A stretch of DNA of 36,821 nucleotides, taken from the IMG/VR virus record IMGVR_UViG_3300032299_000914, positions 1 to 36,821 of that record; one strand, given 5' to 3'. Below the pieces are notes generated by a model. It saw nothing but the letters and a program-made list of their open reading frames with translations, searched no databases and was not told where the DNA came from. A program made the position numbers and the translations under genes. This DNA comes from a virus. Positions 4,401-27,280 of this stretch are shown here, piece by piece. Each line of letters starts with the position of its first letter. Positions within the stretch are counted from its first letter, which is position 1.

Positions 4401-5663
4401 TTATAGTTTAATTATAGATGATTTTGGTTGTTCAGGCTTAAGAGGATCAATTGACCAACACCAGTATCCTAAAGCATCAGAAATGTGTGTAAGCATTTTA
4501 TCCGTCTTTTGATCTAGTGATCCATCTTTCCAAGAAACCTTTTCAAGATCATTGATTAGTTTTCTACATGATGGGTCAATTATAATTCTACCTTCCCTTA
4601 ATAGTCTATTCACGTTGTTCACTCTGTCAATTACAAGAGGGTTTCTAGTCTGGACTATGTTAAATCCATCATTCTTTAATATGGTGTGATCTGAAATTCC
4701 TGATGTCTTACGGTTTGAACCTGTACTGTCTGGGTATATGTTGGCACCACGATGACCTGACTTAATTAAGTGTGATGACATTTTAAATGTGTCTGAGTTC
4801 TCAAGGAATGCTTCAGACATAACATAGAAAGTTTTATTAATGTAATAGCCTATCACTGCTGTCATTGGTTGGACGTTAAAGTCACATCCTATACACAACT
4901 GGCCTTGCTTGAATGATGCATCCACTTCTTTAACATGAGCTTCACGATCAAAGCTGTAGTAAGCTGATCCATCACTGTCATCACTAAACTCACCATCTCT
5001 AAATCTCTTCCTTTGAGCCTCTGGCATATTGTCTAATATTTCTGATATGTACTCTGGATCAATGTTATCCAGGTTATCTTTTGGATTCATTAGAACATGA
5101 ATATACTTTGATGGATCCACTGGTACGTTATCAACAGGATCAAGATGCTTAATGAATAACCAGTATGACCAATGCTTCTTTGAAGGCGGATTCATATCAT
5201 ATAGAGCTTTCTTTTTCAGGTCGCTCTTTTCTGCTAATCGAGTAAGTGCTACCTGCACAGACTTGTATGGAATTTGTGAGCACTCATTAAAATAAACTGT
5301 GCTGTATTCCTTACCCAGAATCTTCTCAACTCTCTTCTCATCATCAAGTCCTGCTATCCAGATTTCTGATCCGTTAGTAAGTGAAATATAATAATCTGAT
5401 TTATTAAATTCAACAGGAAGGTTAGGAAAGCAAACTTTTAAAACCTTTGGAAGTGTGTCCATCCATATTGATGTTTTAGCATGATTGAAATTTAATCTAA
5501 GTATAACGTGCCTGGACTTTACTTTTGCTGCTCTAATTATGATTGATCTTACTATCTGAAACGTCTTACCACTTCGACCACCGCCCATTGCCATTACGTG
5601 CCTTGCATCTGACTGCATTGCAATTGCTAGATCACGTTGACGTGGGTTTGGTTTATATTCCAA
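4401..5663 (-). CDS. terL: Terminase large subunit
   Basis: This 420-aa ATPase-nuclease packages DNA into the prohead and cuts it. Walker A is GGGRSGKT (27-34). A Walker B strand with the catalytic acid follows (STVYFNECS, E127), then the coupling segment LYDMNPPSKKHWSYW. The nuclease half has the three acidic sites expected of an RNase H-like terminase: D261 in CIGCDFNV, D312 in IYPDSTGS, and D396 in ISDALGYW. The start is an unusual TTG at 5663 inside the end of TerS. No ATG is available before Walker A except at codon 16, which would crowd the ATP site. Initiation is probably coupled to TerS translation via AGAAGAAG. Confidence 0.95.
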   Translation of the reverse strand: MEYKPNPRQRDLAIAMQSDARHVMAMGGGRSGKTFQIVRSIIIRAAKVKSRHVILRLNFNHAKTSIWMDTLPKVLKVCFPNLPVEFNKSDYYISLTNGSEIWIAGLDDEKRVEKILGKEYSTVYFNECSQIPYKSVQVALTRLAEKSDLKKKALYDMNPPSKKHWSYWLFIKHLDPVDNVPVDPSKYIHVLMNPKDNLDNIDPEYISEILDNMPEAQRKRFRDGEFSDDSDGSAYYSFDREAHVKEVDASFKQGQLCIGCDFNVQPMTAVIGYYINKTFYVMSEAFLENSDTFKMSSHLIKSGHRGANIYPDSTGSNRKTSGISDHTILKNDGFNIVQTRNPLVIDRVNNVNRLLREGRIIIDPSCRKLINDLEKVSWKDGSLDQKTDKMLTHISDALGYWCWSIDPLKPEQPKSSIIKL

Positions 5664-6027
5664 CTTCTTCTTCTAGTATCTTTATTTCTATTTTTGTTGT
5701 ATCTATGTCTAATTTGCTTTCTATTTTGTCACTCCATCCACAAAGATTCTTAAGAGAGAAAATAAGCATTGGAACATTCCCTGACTCTGCCATTTTCAAA
5801 GCCTTGTCCATTAGTTTAAATTTAGTGATAGACATTTTTCTGTTACTATACTCTGTGAATGTTTCACCAAATCTATCTTTTATATGTAGCTTAATTGTGT
5901 TTTCATGAACGCCAAGAATTTCAGCACAGATAACTAGTGTGGCGGGTCTTGCTAATATTCCATCAAGTTTATCCCAACTAAAAGGCGTCCTTTGAGTGTC
6001 GTACTCTTTTTGTGGTTTTTCAGACAT
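5653..6027 (-). CDS. terS: Terminase small subunit
   Basis: This 124-aa protein overlaps the start of the large terminase by 11 bp, the normal gene order. It carries a helix-turn-helix around residues 28-55 (TLVICAEILGVHENTIKLHIKDRF), consistent with recognising the packaging site. It then has an oligomerisation segment KLMDKALKMAES, and the sequence GNVPMLIFSLKNLCGWSDK that is typical of many small terminases. Start is the ATG at 6027. It would bind phage DNA and hand it to TerL. The preceding HNH gene overlaps it by 8 bp, placing HNH, TerS and TerL in one coupled packaging unit. Confidence 0.85.
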   Translation of the reverse strand: MSEKPQKEYDTQRTPFSWDKLDGILARPATLVICAEILGVHENTIKLHIKDRFGETFTEYSNRKMSITKFKLMDKALKMAESGNVPMLIFSLKNLCGWSDKIESKLDIDTTKIEIKILEEEVGI

Positions 6028-6619
6028 GAGAGCTGCCCTTCCTAAGATTCTCCACCCTGTCTAGTGGCCGCAAATTATCTAAACTCCAAAGAATACCAAA
6101 TGACTCGTCACGAAATGACCTATATCTTAGCTTTGCGCAAGGGATGATATGGTCAATATGCCATGAGCTCCCCTGATTTTCCCAAGACCATCCATCCTTG
6201 AATTGAGCTTCAATGTGGCCCATATATGTATCAATTGAAAACCCTAGTATTAGCTCCATCATTGACTCGGAAAGAGTATTTACCAGTGCACCATTTTTTT
6301 CAATGTTTGTTCTGAGGTTTGTTCTAAGTCTGTTCTTTGCTGCTGTTCTATTGTTTCTATATGGTGGTCTATACCCTATAAATTTTCTTTTTATTGAGTA
6401 TTTGTGTTCAGGGTAAAGCCAGCAGTAAAATCCTGCTAATTCTTTACCTGAAATGGATTCATCGTGTTTTTTCGCTTCATATTCATTTAAACCTATGTCT
6501 ACCAATTCATTTATGGCCCATGAAGGATACCCATTCTTTTTAGCTAATAATAAGACTGTTTCTTTAAGGTCTTTTTTATCTATTTTAGTATCATTAAGCT
6601 CTTTACGTGGTCTGGCCAT
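6020..6619 (-). CDS. HNH endonuclease beside terminase
   Basis: This 199-aa protein ends with a complete HNH nuclease core: WHIDHIIPCAKLRY, then LWSLDNLRPLDRVENLRKGS, supplying the His, Asp/His and Asn residues. The N-terminal part (residues 1-110) is basic and helical and has no family I can name. HNH proteins next to terminase genes are known to be needed for cos cutting or packaging in HK97-like phages, and others are homing enzymes. The coupled position (overlapping both the methyltransferase and TerS) favours a packaging role over a recent insertion. The ATG at 6619, preceded by GGAG, is preferred over the adjacent GTG at 6622, which would be too close to the ribosome site. Confidence 0.8.
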   Translation of the reverse strand: MARPRKELNDTKIDKKDLKETVLLLAKKNGYPSWAINELVDIGLNEYEAKKHDESISGKELAGFYCWLYPEHKYSIKRKFIGYRPPYRNNRTAAKNRLRTNLRTNIEKNGALVNTLSESMMELILGFSIDTYMGHIEAQFKDGWSWENQGSSWHIDHIIPCAKLRYRSFRDESFGILWSLDNLRPLDRVENLRKGSSHV

Positions 6620-7805
6620 CACGCTCCGCCTTTAGTTCTTCGTATGTTTGATTTGTTATTTCTAGCGTAGCTTTCTTGCCAGTGTATTGTTCCCAGCGCT
6701 TAATGATTACATCGTTAAACCTTGGGTCAAACTCCATGATGAAAGCAGTTATTCCGTTTTTTTCTGCAGCAATGAGGGTTGAGCCGCTTCCGCCAAAATA
6801 GTCGGCTATCGTTTTTGCGCTCAATTTAAACCTGTGGATAATCCACTCGGTTAATGACACTGGTTTTTGCGTTGGGTGAACCCTGTTTGTTTTCTCGGAT
6901 GACTGGGTAAACTGTCTCACAACACTTCTAAAGTTTGCCCACGCAAGCTCGCAGTCTGTTTGGTCGCTCTGTCCGTTGTTCTTGTCCCAAACCAACCAAC
7001 ACTCAGAGTCAGGAAGTGCGCTTGAGTAATAATTTGCTCCCCACCATATTTGCTTTGATTCTGGATACAATCCATTTATTAGTTGGAAGGAGTCCTTTGC
7101 CACGTTTGTATTATCGTCACCCATAATGTCAATTTTGTAATTTTTGGACAATACTCCGCTTTTTGACACAGCGCTCATTCCGTAGGGTGGGTCGGTGTGG
7201 ACAAGGTCAGGGTATGTACCATTCATTAGCTTCTCAACGTCATCAATCATCGTACTGTCACCGCACATTAAACGGTGGTTACCGAGTAACCAAACATCAC
7301 CACGCCTAGTTATAGGATGAACCACCTCTGGCACATTATCCTCATCACCTTGTGGTTCAAACTTTTCGATAGGTTCAATGACAAAGTCTTTTATTCCCAA
7401 CATATCAATATCAAAATCCGGCCCAAGGTCAAGCATCTCAGCATTAACCGCACCAAGATCCAAATCACTCCAGGATGCAATGGCATTGTCACTGGTTAAA
7501 TAAGCATATTCTTGAGCTTCACTATCAAATTCCTGGTACATAACAGGAACCTTTTCCATCCCTATCTTACGTGCTGCCATAATTCTTCCATGCCCAGCAA
7601 TAACAAAGCCGCTTCTCTTTGAGACAATTACAGGATTTCTGAATCCATTATATTTAATTAGCTTAACTAATCTTTCTATTTGATCGTCAGGGTGTGAATT
7701 ATTGTTTTTTGGATTAAATACTAGGCTGGCAACATCTACCATTTCGATAGATTCTGATTGAATTTTAGCTGACACATTACCCACTAGGTTGATGTTTCGC
7801 CTCAC
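6603..7805 (-). CDS. ParB-like domain fused to DNA adenine/cytosine-N4 methyltransferase
   Basis: This 400-aa protein has two domains. Residues about 20-105 are a ParB/Srx-type domain with IAGHGRIMAARK (GHGR at 71-74). Residues 168-390 are an amino-methyltransferase with catalytic DPPY (205-208), HPTQKP (310-315) and SAM-binding FGGSGST (337-343). Having DPPY before the SAM site marks the beta class (CcrM-like). ParB-methyltransferase fusions are common in phages, where they methylate phage DNA against restriction or mark it for replication/packaging. Here the gene heads the packaging operon. The start is a GTG with no clear ribosome site, and an ATG at 7742 is an alternative that would shorten the N-terminus by 21 residues. 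The target sequence cannot be read from the gene. Confidence 0.9.
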   Translation of the reverse strand: MRRNINLVGNVSAKIQSESIEMVDVASLVFNPKNNNSHPDDQIERLVKLIKYNGFRNPVIVSKRSGFVIAGHGRIMAARKIGMEKVPVMYQEFDSEAQEYAYLTSDNAIASWSDLDLGAVNAEMLDLGPDFDIDMLGIKDFVIEPIEKFEPQGDEDNVPEVVHPITRRGDVWLLGNHRLMCGDSTMIDDVEKLMNGTYPDLVHTDPPYGMSAVSKSGVLSKNYKIDIMGDDNTNVAKDSFQLINGLYPESKQIWWGANYYSSALPDSECWLVWDKNNGQSDQTDCELAWANFRSVVRQFTQSSEKTNRVHPTQKPVSLTEWIIHRFKLSAKTIADYFGGSGSTLIAAEKNGITAFIMEFDPRFNDVIIKRWEQYTGKKATLEITNQTYEELKAERDGQTT

Positions 7806-7811
7806 GGAGGC
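7799..7811. repeat. Small inverted repeat at the methyltransferase start
   Basis: GCCTC (7799-7803) and GAGGC (7807-7811) form a 5-bp stem with a 3-nt loop that covers the GTG start codon at 7805. TTTT follows on the plus strand. It could hide the start codon in the mRNA or serve as a protein-binding site. It is too short to be sure. Confidence 0.3.
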
Positions 7812-7820
7812 TTTTAATCA

Positions 7821-7849
7821 GGCTAGTTTATGATTGTGTTAACTGTCAA
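7821..7849 (-). promoter_or_regulatory. Candidate promoter for the packaging/late block
   Basis: A perfect -35 box TTGACA lies at 7849-7844 immediately after a terminator-like hairpin and upstream of the methyltransferase. At 17-bp spacing the -10 (CTAGCC) is poor, so host sigma-70 use would be weak or helped by an activator. The sequence TTTGACAG followed by CAATCATAA also occurs before the exonuclease gene at 10.9 kb. Confidence 0.35.
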
Positions 7850-7896
7850 ATAAAAATGTGGTGCAAGGTGACTTTCAAGGAGTTCCTCACACCACA
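7848..7896 (-). terminator. Rho-independent terminator after small accessory genes
   Basis: On the minus strand TGTGGTG (7896-7890) pairs with CACCACA (7863-7857), with additional internal pairing in the loop. It is followed at once by TTTTTATTT (7856-7848). It lies after the stop of the gene at 7937 and before the methyltransferase, separating the accessory cluster from the packaging genes. Confidence 0.6.
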
Positions 7897-10936: not shown

Positions 10937-11200
10937 TTAGTTAATGTGCCTCCATTTACCGACAGTGAAAGTCCACCCATTTTCAATCAACCAAATCTTT
11001 ATGCTCGGATATTTTATTGCAAAGCTATTCATGCCAATTAGATGTGTTTCATTATGGTGCTTTAAACACAAAGGCATCAAGTTAAACTTCTCCTCTGATA
11101 ATTCAGGATGAGCTTTTCTGGTGTAGATGTGGTGGTAAGTGACTTCATTGTCAGCGTAATGACCACAGCAGCAACAAGGTTGATTTGATTTGTAATTCAT
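10937..11200 (-). CDS. HNH domain protein of the replication region
   Basis: From the ATG at 11200 (MNYKSNQPCCCCG) the protein is 87 aa, overlapping the previous gene's stop by 4 bp (ATGA). It has the zinc-type HNH pattern CCCCGHY, then TYHHIYTRKAHPEL, then FNLMPLCLKHHNETHLIG. This supplies two Cys pairs and the His/Asn catalytic set. Small HNH proteins between phage replication genes resemble NinG/Rap-type junction nucleases or DUF968 proteins. An in-frame start at 11326 would overlap the previous gene by 130 bp and is unlikely. It probably processes branched DNA, but this is inferred from context. Confidence 0.75.
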   Translation of the reverse strand: MNYKSNQPCCCCGHYADNEVTYHHIYTRKAHPELSEEKFNLMPLCLKHHNETHLIGMNSFAIKYPSIKIWLIENGWTFTVGKWRHIN

Positions 11201-11688
11201 CCGAATTGTCTTCTGAATGCTTGGTAAACTTCTGTGTAGTTTCCTTTTTGTGCGGCACTTATTAAAGCAATTAAATGAGTTGATCTCGCAATGGCATCCT
11301 CCTCTAAAAGCTGCCTGTCTTCGCACATGTCTTTAATTAAAAACCTGTGATACTTTCCACCTCTGAAAAAGAAATAATTTCTATTCGCCCAAACATTTTC
11401 TTTTACAGGATATTCCCAATCCATTGAGTTGTTAGCCGATTGTGTCGTTGGTTCTTTAGCAACTCCAAGCGACCTGATATTTAAGTCCCTTATCGCCTGT
11501 CTAAAGTCAGGAACCAGTGGTGCTGCCTTGCTTCCGCCGACAAAATGTAAAATCATTTTATCAAAATCACTTGAAGATATTCCACGCACCTCGTTAAAGA
11601 TTAGGTTTATCCTGTCCTGGGAATAACTCTTTGCACCAAACTGATTAATGATTTTCATGAAACCATTTTCAAATTCAGATTTATTCAT
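11197..11688 (-). CDS. Replication protein, possible helicase loader
   Basis: The ATG at 11688 follows GGAGGCTTAAA, a near-perfect ribosome site that overlaps the stop of the initiator gene, so the upstream in-frame codons are rejected. The 163-aa protein has a helical N-terminal domain, MNKSEFENGF then KSYSQDRINLIFNEVRGISS and FDKMILHFVGGSKAAPLVPD. This recalls loaders such as SPP1 G39P, where a helical domain is followed by a flexible tail. The second part (YHRFLIKDMCEDRQLLEE) is not recognised. Placement directly after the initiator, as lambda P follows O, supports a loader role. The homology is weak. Confidence 0.5.
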   Translation of the reverse strand: MNKSEFENGFMKIINQFGAKSYSQDRINLIFNEVRGISSSDFDKMILHFVGGSKAAPLVPDFRQAIRDLNIRSLGVAKEPTTQSANNSMDWEYPVKENVWANRNYFFFRGGKYHRFLIKDMCEDRQLLEEDAIARSTHLIALISAAQKGNYTEVYQAFRRQFG

Positions 11689-18512: not shown

Positions 18513-18658
18513 AGTTTTGGGGGTTTCCCACCTAACTTAATTATTAGTGCTTCAAACATTTTAGTTTTTGTTTTATCACCATTAACCTTAGCTTGAAGGT
18601 ATTGCTCTATCCAGTGATCTATTTGTTCTTTTTTAGTTAAGCACTTTTTAGGTTTCAA
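18509..18658 (-). CDS. Small basic protein (49 aa), TTG start
   Basis: An open frame begins at TTG 18658, overlapping the lipoprotein stop (TTGA), and ends at a TGA overlapping the nuclease ATG. It reads MKPKKCLTKKEQIDHWIEQY, then LQAKVNGDKTKTKMFEALII and ends KLGGKPPKL. AAGAGAA lies upstream. The double coupling and a Lys-rich, helical, soluble composition favour a real gene. It may be a partner of the VRR-NUC nuclease. Family unknown. Confidence 0.6.
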   Translation of the reverse strand: MKPKKCLTKKEQIDHWIEQYLQAKVNGDKTKTKMFEALIIKLGGKPPKL

Positions 18659-19002
18659 GGATTTATTCTTTTCTTTAGTCCAAAGTCGTTAGCTTTAAAG
18701 AACTTCATTGCCTCTTGATTGTTGAACTTAAAAGAAACTTTTTTAACTCCCCACTTGATACAGATGACAATCCTCTTCTCGCATTCTCTCCACGAATAAT
18801 ATACACCGGACAAATCTTTTTCGATCGGGAAGAACGCATCGTCAGTAGGGAAAGGAATATCAGGAGCAAAATGAACAAGTGAAACAGAGTCACTTTTTAC
18901 CAGGGTGTTTGATGAAATTGGAGGCGATGATTCCAAGCTCGTGCAGCCGCTCATCAAGATAAAGTTGAGAACGAGAATCTTCAGGCTTAGAAAGCTCTTC
19001 AT
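18655..19002 (-). CDS. Predicted lipoprotein (possible outer-membrane spanin)
   Basis: This 115-aa protein starts with a signal peptide and lipobox (FILMSG-C20), with Thr at +2, which favours outer-membrane delivery by the E. coli rule. The mature part is 95 residues with SSPPISSNTLVK, then a compact domain (GVYYSWRECEKRIVICIKWG). It starts inside the previous gene in another frame, as Rz1 does in Rz, and lies near an endolysin gene. This makes an o-spanin plausible. However, it is longer and less Pro-rich than classical Rz1, and the gene overlapping it lacks a membrane span, so it is not a standard Rz/Rz1 pair. Confidence 0.6.
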   Translation of the reverse strand: MKSFLSLKILVLNFILMSGCTSLESSPPISSNTLVKSDSVSLVHFAPDIPFPTDDAFFPIEKDLSGVYYSWRECEKRIVICIKWGVKKVSFKFNNQEAMKFFKANDFGLKKRINP

Positions 19003-19380: not shown

Positions 19381-19758
19381 CTATTTTTCACGATACGGCT
19401 TTATGCCAACGTGAATATGTTTCATTGATCCTATTCCATGCCAAAGTATCAGGTTAGGCAATCCAGTCGTGGCTGATATAGATGCCCATTCTGAATACTT
19501 ATTCTCGAAATGCTTCTCGAAGCTAGATATAAACTCTAACGGAAGCCCACGTGATCTTATGTCGACACATCTACCTTCTTGGTGTCCTTTTGAAACCCTA
19601 TTGTACAAAGCATCCTCTGTGGCATCACTCAAAACATCAGTTATAATTAGCTCATGACCATGCTGAGTAAAGTATTCATCCATGTCATTTAACACCACCC
19701 ATAATCGATGGCGTATTTGCGTAATCTCTTCTTCTTCTTTTTTAGACTTAAACTGCAT
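19381..19758 (-). CDS. M15-like peptidoglycan peptidase (endolysin)
   Basis: This 125-aa protein has the M15/Hedgehog-type zinc pattern: S-x-x-H-Q-E-G-R-x-x-D around H59-D66 (VSKGHQEGRCVDIRS) and a second site H114-x-H116 (MKHIHVGI). The first half is helical (EEEITQIRHRLWVVLNDMDE), followed by ELIITDVLSDATEDAL. Such enzymes cut peptide cross-links of peptidoglycan as D-Ala or L-Ala-D-Glu peptidases. It lacks a signal peptide, so it would need a holin or be used from within the virion. It lies at the end of the tail block just upstream of the lipoprotein, fitting a lysis enzyme. Confidence 0.82.
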   Translation of the reverse strand: MQFKSKKEEEEITQIRHRLWVVLNDMDEYFTQHGHELIITDVLSDATEDALYNRVSKGHQEGRCVDIRSRGLPLEFISSFEKHFENKYSEWASISATTGLPNLILWHGIGSMKHIHVGIKPYREK

Positions 19759-20784: not shown

Positions 20785-23319
20785 TCATCCGATAATGTTA
20801 TTGCCTAAACTAACCTCTGATGTTGGATCAGGTGTTAAGACGTTATTGTCTAATATGTAACCATATCTTATCAAATCATCTTTTATTTGTGCTGAATAGT
20901 CTAGTGTGGTGTTTGGAGCTATGGCAGGGATTCGGTTATAAACATTCCCTAGGTCAGTGAAAATAATATCAGTATCAAAACCGTTCTTTTTAACACCAGT
21001 AATAGTTCCGATCTTCCTTTTATCTTTTCCACCATACCGCTTATAAAGCCTGTCTAATGAAAGGAACATTTTATCACTGACAGCAAGCAGGGCAAGATTG
21101 AGCTTTGCCTTGACCGTAACAACGGTGCTAGGAAGGCTGTTAAACAAGAGTATCCTCTGAGCTATGATCTTGGCTTTATCAGCCTCATAAAGGTAAAGGG
21201 TTCGCTCTGATGATGCCTTAATTCCTATCAGGTTATTAACAAAGTCTGAAGTCTGGGAATATGATTCAAAAGCAGCCTCTCCACTAAATATGTCAGTGAA
21301 TGGGCGATAGTTTACTTTAATATTATTTATGATCCTTTGCGTCGATGTTGAATCAAAAGATATTATGTCATCATCTTTTAAAATCTGTGTATCCTGTGGT
21401 TTACGTGCGTTTAAAATATTGTACGCAATATCAAGAGATGCATTTCCACAAAGTGAACCGAATACAGATTGATTAATTTTAGTTATCACATCTCTAATAA
21501 GCGGCTCTGAGTCACCAATGTTTTCTGGAATTGGCATTGAAAGAATATAGTCACAATCAGCATTTGCCTTTGTAAAACTATCCTCATCAATTGCAGTCAA
21601 CTCAGCATCATTCAAGATAAGATGCCTAACCGCATCTGATGGTGTTTTAATCCACTCCCCATCAACCTCTATACCCAGACAATCGCAAGTGACAATTGAC
21701 TCATCGTTAATCACATCTATGTTTTTATATGTGGCTGCTTTGGTAGCTGTTGCGCCAGTAAAGTTTGATCTTAATATTATCTCTTGTTCCTTAACTTGAA
21801 GAATCTCATAGTAAGATGGTTCTGTTATAGTTGAGCTTCTTATAAAGTCATTTGGCTTTAATATCGATCTAAAATCAACAACGGATGAGGTCGTAAGTGA
21901 TCTTGATCCATTTGTGAACAATAAATTAACACCTAAACTTCTTTCTTTTGCCACGTTAAATTCTGCAAACTCATCAAATATAATCTTTGATTCTGTTGTG
22001 TTTTCAAATGTCCAATCTCTTAAATAAATATATTCTTCTGAACCAACATAAACTTTTTGAATAGGTAGCTTTATGATTTCATCAGTAACAACAGGCAAAG
22101 GTGACACTGCGTTTTCAAGAACTATTTCATTCCCTGAAACTCTCCTGACAGATATTAAGTCACCGTTTATTTCTATTTGGTCACCTGAATATATGTCTGA
22201 AACATCATCAACCAAGTATCTATTCTCTGATATTACGCTTGTGATTGTGGCAAGTGGTGATCTTAGTTTATGTCCAGCTACACTCCAAACCCTGTTTTTA
22301 AATCTTCTCGGAAGTGAAGGTCTTATAATTATTCCGCTTTTATTTACAATAGATATTTCTAGTTCATTACCAAGTGTGGCTGATGTGTCTGATTGAATTG
22401 AATCAACTGTAAGCCTGAAATCTTCATCGTTAAACGTAACAACTAACTCATCACCTGGACTTAAATCAGTTAGAAATCCTGACGTTGTTGTTATCTGATC
22501 TGTTTCAATTGCACCGTTAATGGATTGTCCAAACTCATATCCACCTAGTATTTTTCTTAGACCTACGCATTTAAGTTGCTTAACCTGTCCGTAAATTCTT
22601 CTTTTCGGTCTGTCTATAAGTGAAGGATCAATCTCACCATCAGCTAAAGAAAACTTTCCGAGGTTAACAAAATCCCTAAGTCTGAATATGAAGTCTTTTA
22701 CTTTAAAGTTAACGGCTGAAACAGAAAAGTCTTTTGACTCTATAACACCATTAAATATCTTTTTTATTTCTGTGATCGGTGTTCCTGTTATGTACGAATA
22801 GAATTCAACAGTTTGATTCTCCCAAATGAGAGTGTCATAAATCTCATCCCAGTAGCCATGATTATTTATCATCGAGATTGATGATGACGACTCGAGTACA
22901 ATTCCGGTTGATTCCTCATCCAGTTGCTGGCCTATTGATCCTATAGAATTTATCAATGGTTCCCACTCAACCTCTTCACCAGTTGCTAAATCATGAGGCA
23001 TAACAATCGGTGCTGTTGAATAAAATAACTTATACGTTAATGATAGACTTCTAGTTTTTGGATCTGAGGAGTTCGATGTTCTTACGTATAGCTTTTTAGC
23101 TACAGAATCAAAGTACCACTGACCTGCGCTTAATGATGTTGAGAATGCCTGTGTTAAGTGTGTTGCACCGTCTTTGACATTGGATACAAAGTGTAAAACA
23201 TCTCTTACATAAACCGATCCAGAATGAACCGTAAATAACTTAACCTGCTCAACTGCACCCATCGTAACGAGTACAATCTTTTCTGATCTTAATTGATTTG
23301 ATGCTTCTTGATAGTTCAT
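20785..23319 (-). CDS. Large baseplate/tail-hub protein (844 aa)
   Basis: The longest complete gene in this part of the late block. Its N-terminus (NYQEASNQLRSEKIVLVTMG) is followed by a beta-rich region with WYFDSVAKKLYVRTSNSSD. Middle segments such as GYWDEIYDTLIWENQTVEFYS, SGDQIEINGDLISVRRVSGN and LILNDAELTAIDEDSF suit the layered barrel domains of tail-hub (gp27/Tal-like) proteins. Cysteines in VTCDCLGIEVDG may form a local metal or disulphide site. It follows the envelope cassette (ATGA overlap at 23319) and precedes the small tail-tip proteins. It may be the hub that holds fibres, although I recognise no exact family. Confidence 0.65.
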   Translation of the reverse strand: MNYQEASNQLRSEKIVLVTMGAVEQVKLFTVHSGSVYVRDVLHFVSNVKDGATHLTQAFSTSLSAGQWYFDSVAKKLYVRTSNSSDPKTRSLSLTYKLFYSTAPIVMPHDLATGEEVEWEPLINSIGSIGQQLDEESTGIVLESSSSISMINNHGYWDEIYDTLIWENQTVEFYSYITGTPITEIKKIFNGVIESKDFSVSAVNFKVKDFIFRLRDFVNLGKFSLADGEIDPSLIDRPKRRIYGQVKQLKCVGLRKILGGYEFGQSINGAIETDQITTTSGFLTDLSPGDELVVTFNDEDFRLTVDSIQSDTSATLGNELEISIVNKSGIIIRPSLPRRFKNRVWSVAGHKLRSPLATITSVISENRYLVDDVSDIYSGDQIEINGDLISVRRVSGNEIVLENAVSPLPVVTDEIIKLPIQKVYVGSEEYIYLRDWTFENTTESKIIFDEFAEFNVAKERSLGVNLLFTNGSRSLTTSSVVDFRSILKPNDFIRSSTITEPSYYEILQVKEQEIILRSNFTGATATKAATYKNIDVINDESIVTCDCLGIEVDGEWIKTPSDAVRHLILNDAELTAIDEDSFTKANADCDYILSMPIPENIGDSEPLIRDVITKINQSVFGSLCGNASLDIAYNILNARKPQDTQILKDDDIISFDSTSTQRIINNIKVNYRPFTDIFSGEAAFESYSQTSDFVNNLIGIKASSERTLYLYEADKAKIIAQRILLFNSLPSTVVTVKAKLNLALLAVSDKMFLSLDRLYKRYGGKDKRKIGTITGVKKNGFDTDIIFTDLGNVYNRIPAIAPNTTLDYSAQIKDDLIRYGYILDNNVLTPDPTSEVSLGNNIIG

Positions 23320-23540
23320 TTTAATTCTTTAATTAATACTTCTAGCTTATCAAATCTTCTATTTAAGTGCTCCATGTCAGCACTTCTCACAGCTATAACT
23401 CTCTTCTCAATTCCTTCAGCTTCAGACCTAGCAATCATTACAATTCCACCGTAAGCAATAGCCACCGTCGTAAACATTAGACCTAGCACTTTTGTTATTG
23501 CCTGGAATGTTGGTCCGATTAATTGCCAGAGGATTTTCAT
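23316..23540 (-). CDS. Single-span membrane protein with coiled-coil tail (74 aa)
   Basis: The ATG at 23540 follows AAGGGCGCAG and overlaps the previous stop by 4 bp; its own TGA overlaps the hub ATG. It has one transmembrane helix (FQAITKVLGLMFTTVAIAYG and following residues to about position 36), then a charged helical tail (ARSEAEGIEKRVIAVRSADM and LNRRFDKLEVLIKELK) likely to form a coiled coil. This is the layout of an i-spanin or of a one-span holin. It is the innermost member of a coupled envelope-directed group and the best spanin/holin candidate in the window. Confidence 0.65.
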   Translation of the reverse strand: MKILWQLIGPTFQAITKVLGLMFTTVAIAYGGIVMIARSEAEGIEKRVIAVRSADMEHLNRRFDKLEVLIKELK

Positions 23541-24115
23541 TCTGCGCCCTTCAACTGTAGAACAGTTTGCATAACGTGCCATAAAAGATTGTTTTTCTGT
23601 GCTGCAGTTAAAGCATCAAATTCTGATTTTGAAAGATTCTTCATTGCTTCAAGTGCTGCTATAGCTCTTGATTCTCTTTGGTCACGCTTAGCTTGTCGTG
23701 CAACTTGCTTAGCTTCTTGAGCTGCTTTTTTAGCTGCTGATTCCTGTAGCTTCTTACCATCTACTTTCATAATGTCTTTGGCACAATAGACTTGAAGGAG
23801 GTCGTAGTTATTAATTGCAACACCTTCAGCGCATACCAGTGCTGCAAACTTGATGTCACAGTCTGCAATATCAAGACACGATTCTTCTTGAAGTTTAGCT
23901 ACATAGTCGAGAACGATGTTGTCTACTTCTTCTGTTGTCTTAGCTGAAGGTAAACCTAGTATGCTGATACATTCAGAGGCTTTAATCTCTTCACATAGTC
24001 CCTTGTTTGCAAATGAAGTGTACTGCTCGTCTGCGATAAACAATTCAACATCTGACTTTGCAATAAAGGATGCGTTAGCGTTAGTTGCTAGCAACAGGAA
24101 AATTAAAAATTTCAT
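23537..24115 (-). CDS. Secreted helical protein with six cysteines (192 aa)
   Basis: The ATG at 24115 gives a typical signal peptide, MKFLIFLLLATNANA, with A13 and A15 fitting a signal-peptidase I cut after A15. It overlaps the previous stop by 4 bp. The mature N-terminal half is acidic with six Cys (LCEEIKASECISIL, EESCLDIADCDIKF, VCAEGV, VYCAKD), suggesting three disulphides formed outside the cytoplasm. The second half is a long basic Ala/Lys/Arg-rich helix (ESAAKKAAQEAKQVARQAKR) and ends FDALTAAQKNNLLWHVMQTV. No family is recognised. It would be in the periplasm. Confidence 0.7.
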   Translation of the reverse strand: MKFLIFLLLATNANASFIAKSDVELFIADEQYTSFANKGLCEEIKASECISILGLPSAKTTEEVDNIVLDYVAKLQEESCLDIADCDIKFAALVCAEGVAINNYDLLQVYCAKDIMKVDGKKLQESAAKKAAQEAKQVARQAKRDQRESRAIAALEAMKNLSKSEFDALTAAQKNNLLWHVMQTVLQLKGAE

Positions 24116-26403
24116 AGTTTTTGTCCGTAGCAAAAGAGTTTAAATGGAGTGAGGGCATCTGATCTATCTACGTTTACTGTTGTAGTGGATTCACTGTAAG
24201 CAATACCTGTGTTTCCGTCAGTGTTTGCGTTTGCCCAGCACTTAGGAGTAGCTGCCCAATAGTTAGTTGTAAATGTACAAACTGAAGGATCGGCATTGGT
24301 GCATGAGGAAAGGAATGTTCCATCATTGTCTGTAATAGCTTCCGTTGATGAAACCCTTGCGCTTACAATTACGGCATTAGCTACAATAGCTGGCATGGTC
24401 GGTACGTTTGCAAACGACCCCACGATTGTTCGAGTCGCTACAAAGTCGGTACCTTGTTTTTGACAGATAATCTGTACAGGGTAAGCCGTTAATGTTCCGG
24501 CAGATGCTACCGAGGTTCTATAAGAAGTATTGGTACTTGAAGACCCATTTAATTTTTGAGAAACCGTATCCCCTGTACCTTTTGTTATAAAAGTACAGTT
24601 TGGTTCGACCGTGAATATTCCGGTATTGTGTGTGCAAGTGAAGTCAGAAGTAGATAAAGAACAGTTACCATTAATCCAGTCAACATTTTCTCCTGAAACT
24701 GTCCCTGTATTTGAAACAGAAGCACTAAACGTATCAACACAATTCGCACCACATGAAGCGGAGTAGATAGAGGAATTAGCAGGTGGAAAGAAATATACCG
24801 AAAACTTTAATGGTTGAGAGTCTGCTGCTATTGTTACAGAGTCAGTAGAGGGAGATAGTATTTGTGAGGTAAAGTTTACTGATCCTAACGATGAACTTGA
24901 AGCCTCGATAGTCTGTGTAATAGATCCTTGGGAAGCATTTGTTGCTCCTACGTTTATTACTGCTCCGTTAGAGTCGTTTGTTCCGTCAGAGAATCTTATT
25001 CCGTGAATTGTTTGGTTTCCACCTGTCTCATACATTCTACCAGTGGCAACAATTAAATAAGAGCCAGCCTCTTTGTTTGCTACGTTAAATCCGGGAATTT
25101 TTGTAGAAGGTGCTGTTATTGATCCCGTCACTGTCGGAGTCGGACAGTCAGAGTCAGCCGAAGGAGTAGTGTAAGAAGCATTTGTAACAGTCCATGCGCA
25201 GTTTGTTGTTGCTGCCCATGTAATAGTTCCAAGAAGTTTTGCTCCAGAAATATCCTGTTTTAAATTCTCAGCACCAACAAAAGCGTCGTCAATGTATGTA
25301 GTTCCGGCAGTTGTTCCGGTTGAAATTGAAATACCGTTAGACGTAGCTCCACAAATAAAGGGAATCTTATAAAGCCCCCACTTGCTGTCAGTGTTAGCTG
25401 TTACGCAAGTAGATAGATTTGAACCGGCTACCCTAGGGCATATAGAAACCCCGGGAGTAGATGTTTTAACTCTTACCGTTGCTAAACATTGTACACCGTC
25501 AGCAAACTGAGCTGCGTAGAGAGTAGAGTCTTGAGACAAAGAGAAAGAGTTTCCAGCCGCTGTAAAGAGTAATGATTTTTTTCCGCTGATAACTACACTT
25601 GCCTCAGTCGCTTGTGTTGCCGACCCTGAAACTGTCCATCCGGTGGATGCAGTAGAATGTTCAAAACTTGGATTTACTAAAATGTTAGTATTTCCTGTTT
25701 CTATTAATTGCTTATTGGTATCAGTTTGAGTTAGTTGATTATTGGAAACTTGAAACTCTTCAGCGGTTACGGCAGTTTGGTTTTGCGCTTTACCTGATAT
25801 TGATTTATTAACAAAACTTGGCGCACCTGCTCCATTAGTTTGAAGGATTTGACCACTTGATCCTGGTGCTAGTAACTCAAAAGAATCAGCATCAGTGTAA
25901 GCGATTGCGCCATTGTTGGCCGTAGCATTCTTATTCGTACCACCATTAGAGAGTGATAAAACACCTGTTGAATCTGAAACATCATTTGAAATTATAAGCC
26001 ATCTTGATGCAGCTAGGTCTGTTGCAAATGTTCCTGATGAGTGAGCTATTAAGCAAATATAAAACTTGTTTGACTGGATGACTACATCATCAATCTGATA
26101 TGCCTGAGATGTTGCCCATTTATTAACACCACCGCCAGCAGCTTTCCAAGTTGTTCCATTGTAGACGTTTAATGAAAGTGCATTTGTGTTGTATATGCAT
26201 GATCCATTAGCAGGAGATACGATTGCATCCCTTTGTGTCTGAGTCATTGCAGGACATGGCTTAGATGATTTTGTTATTGATGAAACATTTAATTGTGAGC
26301 TAACTGCAAGGTCTTTAACATTCAAAGAATTGTAAGACTGTTGAGCTTTTACGTTTAACGATAACAAAAAAAGTAGGAAAAATATTAAAAAAGCAGTTTT
26401 CAC
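24112..26403 (-). CDS. Secreted fibre-like protein with Sec signal (763 aa)
   Basis: A clear signal peptide (hydrophobic core LIFFLLFLLSL, cut after V18-K19-A20) is followed by a segment around residues 48-87 with CPAMTQTQRDAIVSPANGS. From memory this is like the start of many large secreted proteins in Bdellovibrionota. Residues 95-140 look like a small carbohydrate-binding module (W..-AYQIDDVVIQ-FYICLIAH-W). Residues 149-197 are a tail-fibre 'S-N-G-G-T' repeat unit. Residues about 240-375 (ILVNPSFEHS to YIDDAFVG) resemble a CBM4/jelly-roll carbohydrate-binding domain. There are 19 Cys residues in all, suggesting disulphides. It is fibre-like in content but exported, which is odd for a virion fibre. 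Confidence 0.75.
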   Translation of the reverse strand: MKTAFLIFFLLFLLSLNVKAQQSYNSLNVKDLAVSSQLNVSSITKSSKPCPAMTQTQRDAIVSPANGSCIYNTNALSLNVYNGTTWKAAGGGVNKWATSQAYQIDDVVIQSNKFYICLIAHSSGTFATDLAASRWLIISNDVSDSTGVLSLSNGGTNKNATANNGAIAYTDADSFELLAPGSSGQILQTNGAGAPSFVNKSISGKAQNQTAVTAEEFQVSNNQLTQTDTNKQLIETGNTNILVNPSFEHSTASTGWTVSGSATQATEASVVISGKKSLLFTAAGNSFSLSQDSTLYAAQFADGVQCLATVRVKTSTPGVSICPRVAGSNLSTCVTANTDSKWGLYKIPFICGATSNGISISTGTTAGTTYIDDAFVGAENLKQDISGAKLLGTITWAATTNCAWTVTNASYTTPSADSDCPTPTVTGSITAPSTKIPGFNVANKEAGSYLIVATGRMYETGGNQTIHGIRFSDGTNDSNGAVINVGATNASQGSITQTIEASSSSLGSVNFTSQILSPSTDSVTIAADSQPLKFSVYFFPPANSSIYSASCGANCVDTFSASVSNTGTVSGENVDWINGNCSLSTSDFTCTHNTGIFTVEPNCTFITKGTGDTVSQKLNGSSSTNTSYRTSVASAGTLTAYPVQIICQKQGTDFVATRTIVGSFANVPTMPAIVANAVIVSARVSSTEAITDNDGTFLSSCTNADPSVCTFTTNYWAATPKCWANANTDGNTGIAYSESTTTVNVDRSDALTPFKLFCYGQKL

Positions 26404-26831
26404 GAAACGATCCTTGTTATGTCCATTTTAATTTTACTAGAAACGTGTGATGGCATATTTCCAGACTTGTAAGTTAGTGATCCAACACCTACTGAAGTAG
26501 TGATTTGAAACTGTACGAATGTTGGGCTTGCTACGTTATCTTGAATCAGATCATTACCTTGATAGTTTCCTAGGTTAAGTACCCAATTGGTTCCATCAAA
26601 TGAAAGTATTAATGTTCCTGACTGTCTGTACTCTGTTGTTGCATCAATTCTTTCAAGCTCGTAATTAACAAAAGCAGAAGCGAACCCTGCTGAATCAATC
26701 GTGAATGGTGAAGAGAATGAAACAAAAGCAGCTTGGTTGTTTAGTATAGTGTAATCTTCCTGACTACCACCTGAGATAGACGGTGCAGAAGATGATGTGA
26801 AGCTATCCGTAAAGTTTATTATTAGAGGCAT
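26400..26831 (-). CDS. Baseplate/tail structural protein (143 aa)
   Basis: The ATG at 26831 overlaps the end of the previous gene by 10 bp, and its stop overlaps the next ATG (ATGA). The protein is beta-rich and hydrophilic: INFTDSFTSSSAPSISGG, FTIDSAGFASAFVNYELERI and TLILSFDGTNWVLNLGNY. It is likely a jelly-roll or beta-sandwich subunit following the distal tail genes. No motif of catalysis or export is seen. Function is inferred from position. Confidence 0.55.
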   Translation of the reverse strand: MPLIINFTDSFTSSSAPSISGGSQEDYTILNNQAAFVSFSSPFTIDSAGFASAFVNYELERIDATTEYRQSGTLILSFDGTNWVLNLGNYQGNDLIQDNVASPTFVQFQITTSVGVGSLTYKSGNMPSHVSSKIKMDITRIVS

Positions 26832-27280
26832 TTTATCCCTTCTTTATAAATCTTAACTCTAAAAGCTAAAGGATTCTGTGAATCATTAATAGGATTGTAT
26901 GATATGGAATTTTGAATGTCTTCATGTTGTTGAATCCACCCGATAAATGATGATCCACTGGCCGTATATCCTGATGTTTTAAGCCTTAATATGTAATCAC
27001 CCTTCTCAATTTTTAAAGGATTTGTGGGTATCACTGGATAAAAAGAGTATAGATAGTTGTCCGTAGTTCCTGATGCTGCTTTTATGTCTGCAGAGGTAAA
27101 TGACTTAGACATAACAACACCACCGGGAACCTTCTCTAATTCTAAAGTAAAGGTCCCGGCAGCATTGTTATGAAGGTATATCGCAGGTAATATGCAAGCA
27201 ACATGAAACCTTTCATTTACATCAATCGTAAACTCTTGTTCTAATTCGCTGATTATCTTATTTACAAGTAAGGTGCTTAT
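26822..27280 (-). CDS. Tail protein with a probable AUA start codon (152 aa)
   Basis: A canonical ATG at 27112 would give only 96 residues, yet the same frame stays open for 56 codons upstream. That upstream part reads like the missing N-terminal half: STLLVNKIISELEQEFTIDV, ERFHVACILPAIYLHNNAAG and TFTLELEKVPGGVV. No ATG, GTG, TTG or CTG occurs in that part. The codon overlapping the upstream stop is ATA (27280-27278), with AAAGAGG 4 nt before it and an ATAA overlap like the ATGA overlaps nearby. I take ATA as the start. A -1 frameshift from the preceding gene or a G-to-A error would also explain it. The product is a beta-rich structural protein. Confidence 0.6.
   Translation of the reverse strand: MSTLLVNKIISELEQEFTIDVNERFHVACILPAIYLHNNAAGTFTLELEKVPGGVVMSKSFTSADIKAASGTTDNYLYSFYPVIPTNPLKIEKGDYILRLKTSGYTASGSSFIGWIQQHEDIQNSISYNPINDSQNPLAFRVKIYKEGIKCL

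Follow-up and report, generated by a model that had tools for sequence, protein, structure and literature searches.

Genes of the locus

The window, i.e. the whole stretch of DNA analysed here, is an IMG/VR virus record of 36.8 kb. Its ORF list contains three consecutive genes on the minus strand (23316–26403), which a preliminary description had presented as an envelope-directed cassette inside the tail operon. These genes, their neighbours and the features recognised in the longest of the three proteins are the following.

26400..26831, minus strand: putative virion-side stub or docking protein, 143 aa, type C, no Cys; 4-nt overlap with the fibre start
24112..26403, minus strand: fibre-like protein, 763 aa, predicted to be Sec-exported (ORF with GTG start; 19 Cys; strict signal-peptide test)
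26344..26403, minus strand: predicted signal peptide of the 763-aa protein, residues 1–20, cleavage probably between NVKA and QQ (sequence inspection; heuristic test; hydrophobic helix 2–17 in the model)
26035..26118, minus strand: CBM5/12-like segment, residues 96–123 (Pfam PF02839, E 9e-5, below the curated cut-off)
25264..25686, minus strand: carbohydrate-binding-module-like jelly roll, residues about 240–380 (AlphaFold pLDDT about 80–94)
24964..25239, minus strand: TNF-like tip homology to the Bdellovibrio MAT protein Bd2734, residues 389–480 (phmmer to 8okw, E 1.9e-7)
24439..24744, minus strand: SGENVDWINGNC...CQKQGxD module, residues about 554–655 (alignments; pLDDT about 90 over most of it)
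23537..24115, minus strand: predicted exported protein, 192 aa, 6 Cys, helical C-terminal part; homologues directly after the fibre in the myovirus-type contigs L025 and L041
23316..23540, minus strand: predicted one-span membrane protein, 74 aa, C-terminal coiled coil; L029 homologue (E 4e-15) directly after the L029 fibre
20785..23319, minus strand: tail protein, 844 aa, found after the cassette in related siphovirus-type phages (39–45% identity over the full length to L006, L007 and L026)
19381..19758, minus strand: putative endolysin, 125 aa (46–48% identity to genes of L003, L006 and L013; peptidase-like motifs by eye only)
18655..19002, minus strand: lipoprotein, 115 aa, o-spanin-like by position (lipobox MSGC; 63% identity to an L013 gene)

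The coordinates of the three ORFs and the cysteine counts given in the preliminary description (19 in the 763-aa and six in the 192-aa protein) were found to be correct; the 74-aa protein has no cysteine. Four ATGA overlaps had also been reported, and 4-nt overlaps are indeed present at 26403, 24115, 23540 and 23319, being ATGA at the last three positions and GTGA, with the GTG start codon, at 26403.

Two other genes of the window deserve mention. At 26822–27277 (minus strand), the 96-aa gene is preceded in frame by about 50 open codons that show homology but no ATG, GTG or TTG start; its relatives have 142–149 aa, which suggests that the gene uses an uncommon start codon or that sequencing introduced an error. 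The 400-aa protein encoded at 6603–7805 (minus strand) looks by eye like a fusion of a ParB domain and a DNA methyltransferase.

Signal peptides and cysteine content

By sequence inspection, the start of the 763-aa protein (MKTAFLIFFLLFLLSLNVKAQQ) is a canonical, textbook Sec signal peptide, and its N-terminus MKTAFLIFFLLFLLSLNVKA, followed by QQ, passes a strict heuristic Sec test (signal peptides were called by simple home-made rules with internal controls). The strict test is passed by 21 of 21 fibre family members versus eight of 224 other genes, the comparison set consisting of other same-strand genes of at least 100 aa on the same contigs; the eight are mostly lipoproteins, and one is a member of the 192-aa family. 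The N-terminus of the 192-aa protein (MKFLIFLLLATNANA, followed by SF) passes a looser test and is similar in its two relatives, and in the 74-aa protein a single hydrophobic stretch reaches a mean hydropathy of 2.1 over 19 residues, so that the signal peptides and the single span described earlier are all borne out. Median cysteine content is 2.43% in the fibre family versus 0.47% in other genes of at least 200 aa (p about 1e-11, phylogeny ignored).

Conservation of the predicted signal peptide over about 50 divergent contigs is far beyond chance. Export of the fibre-like protein through Sec, as proposed before, is strongly supported by the signal peptides predicted in all 21 tested relatives, and the proposed chemistry of an oxidising compartment is supported by the cysteine content. 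A mis-called start was considered as the source of the signal peptide and rejected, since in the window the same start gives the 4-nt overlap, and the conservation agrees.

Domain composition of the 763-aa protein

The AlphaFold model of this protein is a monomer prediction (pTM 0.33) that is reliable for separate domains only. It suggests the modular, beta-rich, sugar-binding-like domains expected of a tail fibre. For the CBM5/12-like segment, the PF02839 match is better in the relative L006 (1.2e-7); for the jelly roll, Foldseek matches CBM61/CBM16 and tailspike domains with E of 1e-6 to 1e-5. The 8okw tip is also matched by L011 and L053, in the latter over 128 residues (E 2e-15), and in the window protein this domain is internal, not terminal. 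In the alignments, conservation within the family is highest in the SGENVDWINGNC...CQKQGxD module.

Distribution among phages

Scans of viral contigs with the 763-aa protein and its alignments yielded over 20 phage contigs, and fibre homologues were present in 22 of 22 phage records searched. Relatives of the exported fibre are found on about 50 contigs: the 21 strictly tested ones, 22 and five found through type A and type C upstream genes (see below), L087 and L089. By gene content, from which the types were inferred, the window, L005–L007, L011 and L026 are siphovirus-type, L002–L004, L019, L020, L024 and L029 podovirus-type, and L017, L025, L041 and L045 myovirus-type; in all three types the fibre gene occupies the tail-fibre slot of the late operon, as judged from gene order.

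No cellular relatives of the fibre were detected in two scans of 84,980 species genomes with fibre alignments, a motif-limited method. When 50,697 phage records were searched by TBLASTN, the window fibre gave weak matches, a full match was obtained only for L058 (to MW202898) and for gp68 of phage phi1422 (to itself), and there was no match for L029, L064 or the L045 stub. Viral contigs probed with the window tail-tip protein or the 192-aa protein gave no matches.

Two contigs contain natural variants without a signal peptide. The fibres of L057 and L058 stand with the same stub domain and are full-length homologues (31–37% identity) of the exported fibres of L061 and L087; they have no signal peptide, nor is there room for one upstream. 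The L058 fibre starts with MSLTARDKAELGLPINYITNGGAES, which matches the mature start of exported members, for example LTEVDKAIYTERNILKNPGFENG after the cleavage-site A in L017. Since L058 starts at the mature N-terminus, the signal peptide appears to be a discrete add-on; the conserved mature N-terminus behind it may serve as the docking peptide.

The upstream stub gene

The gene next to the fibre on its upstream side in the myovirus-type contigs L041 and L017 resembles tail fibres in their N-terminal docking region alone (phrog_2617, positions 1–79 of 659, E 7e-20); past this match of about 80 residues, the stub ends within about 100–150 residues. For the type A search, the C-terminal domain of the stub was aligned and then used alone as the query. 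The C-terminal domains of type A stubs form one cluster (30/30), while their N-terminal modules fall into 15 distinct clusters, several of which match tail fibre or tail spike families, two of them T7-type. Among 26 assessable type A loci, two of which (L050 and L069) were judged by eye, 24 have an adjacent signal-peptide fibre, 23 directly and one after a tandem second stub; without the two loci that seeded the query, the count is 22 of 24. A Fisher test of the type A loci against the background of 8/224 gives about 2e-24; since these loci are related to one another and the strict rule was the one used to call the background, the value serves as an illustration only. Two stub genes in tandem, each ending in a type A docking domain, precede a single exported fibre in L072 (3470–5298).

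A search with the 143-aa gene of the window (type C) showed that the next gene is an exported fibre in 11 of 11 assessable loci. The evidence for a stub is best for type A; the link of the window stub to tail-fibre stubs is weak, a match to the L041 C-terminus with E of 0.001–0.004. A partner gene with a predicted virion-docking N-terminus is adjacent to the fibre in the type A relatives and in L041 and L017; the 143-aa gene of the window is a putative docking partner, by homology and position only.

Further comparison of the siphovirus-type L011 and the podovirus-type L029 shows that their upstream proteins are unrelated except for the last 91 residues, which are 75% identical. At the DNA level the two contigs have a single stretch in common (67% over 804 bp), which comprises approximately the last 80 codons of the stub gene and the first 180 of the fibre gene. 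Such an island fits a module of stub end and fibre start that is transferred as a whole, although mere adjacency could have the same result.

Companion and lysis-related genes

The three-gene cassette of the preliminary description is conserved only in part: the recurring unit consists of the upstream stub gene (143 aa in the window) and the signal-peptide fibre. Members of the 192-aa family were detected in three phages only (the window, L025 and L041), each time directly after the fibre, and a search with its alignment returned its own members only; the structure model of the 192-aa protein (pLDDT 46) is unusable. In several other siphovirus-type relatives this slot holds a cytoplasmic protein, weakly similar to tail-fibre-assembly proteins (phrog_4912), which sits oddly beside periplasmic folding.

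Small proteins with a span and a coiled coil follow most fibres, and are also found beside endolysins and near a signal-peptide-free fibre (L057). Since they also adjoin endolysins, we read the 74-aa protein as lysis-related; it more likely belongs to a lysis module than to the fibre. With the 192-aa gene rare and the 74-aa type also located near a signal-peptide-free fibre and endolysins, the trio was rejected as a single cassette.

A strongly conserved protein of about 55 aa with the start MNNDQEWR (L002 11213–11380, L006 9050–9217, L011 8696–8863, L026 9302–9469 and others) has a coiled coil and a C-terminal span, adjoins the exported fibre in sipho- and podovirus-type contigs, and is hemolysin/XhlA-like by its layout. 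The putative peptidase endolysins of about 125 aa (window 19381–19758; L003 9933–10331, near the fibre; L006 13677–14078; L013) have no Pfam match, the window member giving no convincing one, and no relative among the 50,697 phage records. The L017 gene at 11099–11593 has, by eye, a thioredoxin-like N-terminus (VVKVWMDNCPKC); the same phage has a Cys-rich exported fibre.

Cultured phages and hosts

One member of the family belongs to phi1422 (NC_019525), a lytic phage of Bdellovibrio bacteriovorus (PMC3391216). Its genes are ordered gp66, gp67 ("tail fiber protein"), gp68 ("hypothetical") and gp69. The 614-aa gp68 has a predicted signal peptide (MKFMIAFIIALFSVTMATA, followed by QIKG) and is homologous to the fibre family (L006, E 7e-9; L072, E 7e-8), and gp69 has one span and a coiled coil. 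In phiPLPE, a relative of phi1422 with another host, the gp66 homologue (E 7e-15) is followed by a single tail fibre without a signal peptide, which is annotated as "virion component confirmed by MS".

The layout of stub and exported fibre also occurs in MW202898 (L087), with an unannotated internal signal-peptide start. Here the annotated start of the "caprin-2 domain protein" (5101–7854) is probably 11 codons early, and the internal start gives the signal peptide MFNKILIAIVFIITCLNAFS.

The resemblance to proteins of predatory bacteria noted in the preliminary description gains support from phi1422 gp68 and from the homology to the Bd2734 tip. The two together point to Bdellovibrionota hosts for at least a part of the group, not for the window phage specifically.

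Interpretation

Tailed phages are taught as assembling entirely inside the cytoplasm, and we know of no tailed phage that mounts a Sec-exported fibre. We found no description of Sec signals on tail fibres in the literature searched, which includes few subscription papers, hence this is weak evidence.

At the level of sequence, a predicted exported, Cys-rich, sugar-binding-like fibre occupies the tail-fibre slot and is inherited with a virion-docking stub on about 50 contigs. The suggestion that the exported proteins form a system distinct from tail fibres is not supported, since synteny and the coupling to the stub gene indicate that the 763-aa protein is a distal tail fibre or derived from one. 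We consider it probable that the tail fibre is split in two genes, of which the one for the 763-aa protein encodes the distal half that binds the receptor; this half would be exported, oxidised in the periplasm and joined to virions at lysis. The upstream gene would provide a short cytoplasmic virion-side stub with a docking domain at its end. The distal half would leave through Sec and, judging from its cysteine content, acquire disulphides in the periplasm; holin and lysis proteins would then let virions meet the exported pool, and the mature N-terminus of the fibre would attach to the stub. The 192-aa protein with its six cysteines may assist, as an optional factor, in folding or assembly; its gene is located in the slot normally taken by tail-fibre assembly proteins. 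Periplasmic folding and mounting at lysis are the steps that we infer. Against this reading, co-inheritance of stub and fibre could result from adjacency alone, and the further fibre-like genes carried by some phages (e.g. L002) could provide the real receptor binder.

In an alternative that we regard as unlikely, the exported protein is an adhesin that works away from the virion: set free, or exposed in the envelope of the infected cell, it would occupy receptors (thereby excluding superinfection or keeping progeny off debris) or alter the adhesion between host and prey; it would have originated from a tail fibre and kept its slot. The signal peptide and cysteines, the carbohydrate-binding-like domains and the tip homology to Bd2734, a surface-displayed member of the Bdellovibrio MAT fibres (PMC10769870), agree with such a role. 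The fibre is, however, tightly coupled to a virion-docking stub across morphotypes, its signal-peptide-free homologues behind the same stub domain resemble ordinary virion fibres, and neither Pfam nor the fold search recognised an outer-membrane anchor or autotransporter-like domain.

The fibre could also remain cytoplasmic, its signal-like hydrophobic N-terminus serving as an anchor to the stub or virion and not for export. Position and stub coupling are as in an ordinary two-piece fibre, but the family retains every feature of a cleavable Sec signal with hardly any sequence conservation, the cysteine content is high, and the hydrophobic segment is missing from L058 although its mature N-terminus is the same, which makes this reading very improbable. 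Least probable of all is a moron-like accessory adhesin that benefits predatory hosts, for example in prey binding, and has no role in infection: despite the Bd2734-like tip domain and the known MAT family (PMC10769870), the gene is linked by 4-nt overlaps to its neighbours within the late tail operon and is carried by phi1422, a phage listed as lytic, and the two motif-limited scans (84,980 species genomes) revealed no cellular relative.

If the split fibre with an exported distal half is real, the export and oxidation of a receptor-binding fibre before its addition to the particle would represent a new assembly route, would account for the Cys-rich fibres of these phages and would suggest fibre exchange in a mixed lysate. 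As a broader and tentative proposal, which we hold with somewhat less than even confidence, a widespread class of tailed phages, at least partly on predatory Bdellovibrionota, may build capsid, tail and stub in the cytoplasm and a disulphide-bonded fibre in the periplasm and join them at lysis, and the exported fibres may be the source or the offspring of the MAT fibres of the predators. The cultured phage phi1422 is one in which the idea of an exported fibre is testable.

Comparison with known systems

Tail fibres made of two or more pieces, exemplified by the long tail fibre of T4, likewise have proximal and distal receptor-binding parts, adjacent genes in the tail-fibre slot and modular tips. 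They differ from the window type, whose distal part has a predicted Sec signal peptide and many cysteines and therefore should fold outside the cytoplasm.

The genes gp67–gp68–gp69 of phi1422 show the same order of tail fibre stub, signal-peptide fibre and span plus coiled-coil protein, whereas gp68 is annotated as hypothetical and has other tip domains, and the phage is a lytic myovirus. Sec-exported and SAR endolysins (PMC6116005) are also phage proteins of the lytic cycle that are exported by the host Sec system before lysis, but they are lysis enzymes and not fibres.

All 21 members of the mosaic adhesive trimer (MAT) superfamily of Bdellovibrio have a conserved beta-rich domain of about 130 aa directly behind the signal peptide (Caulton 2024, PMC10769870). 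The phage fibres share with this superfamily the signal peptide, the fibre-like nature, the mosaic tips and a homologous TNF-like tip (E 1.9e-7 in the window, 2e-15 in L053); they differ in being phage-encoded and located behind a virion stub. This comparison rests on PDB tips, and the region after the phage signal peptide varies by subgroup, many fibres having only about 15 residues before the first carbohydrate-binding-like domain. The phage fibres offer a tangible link from tail fibres to the secreted fibres used by Bdellovibrio for prey recognition.
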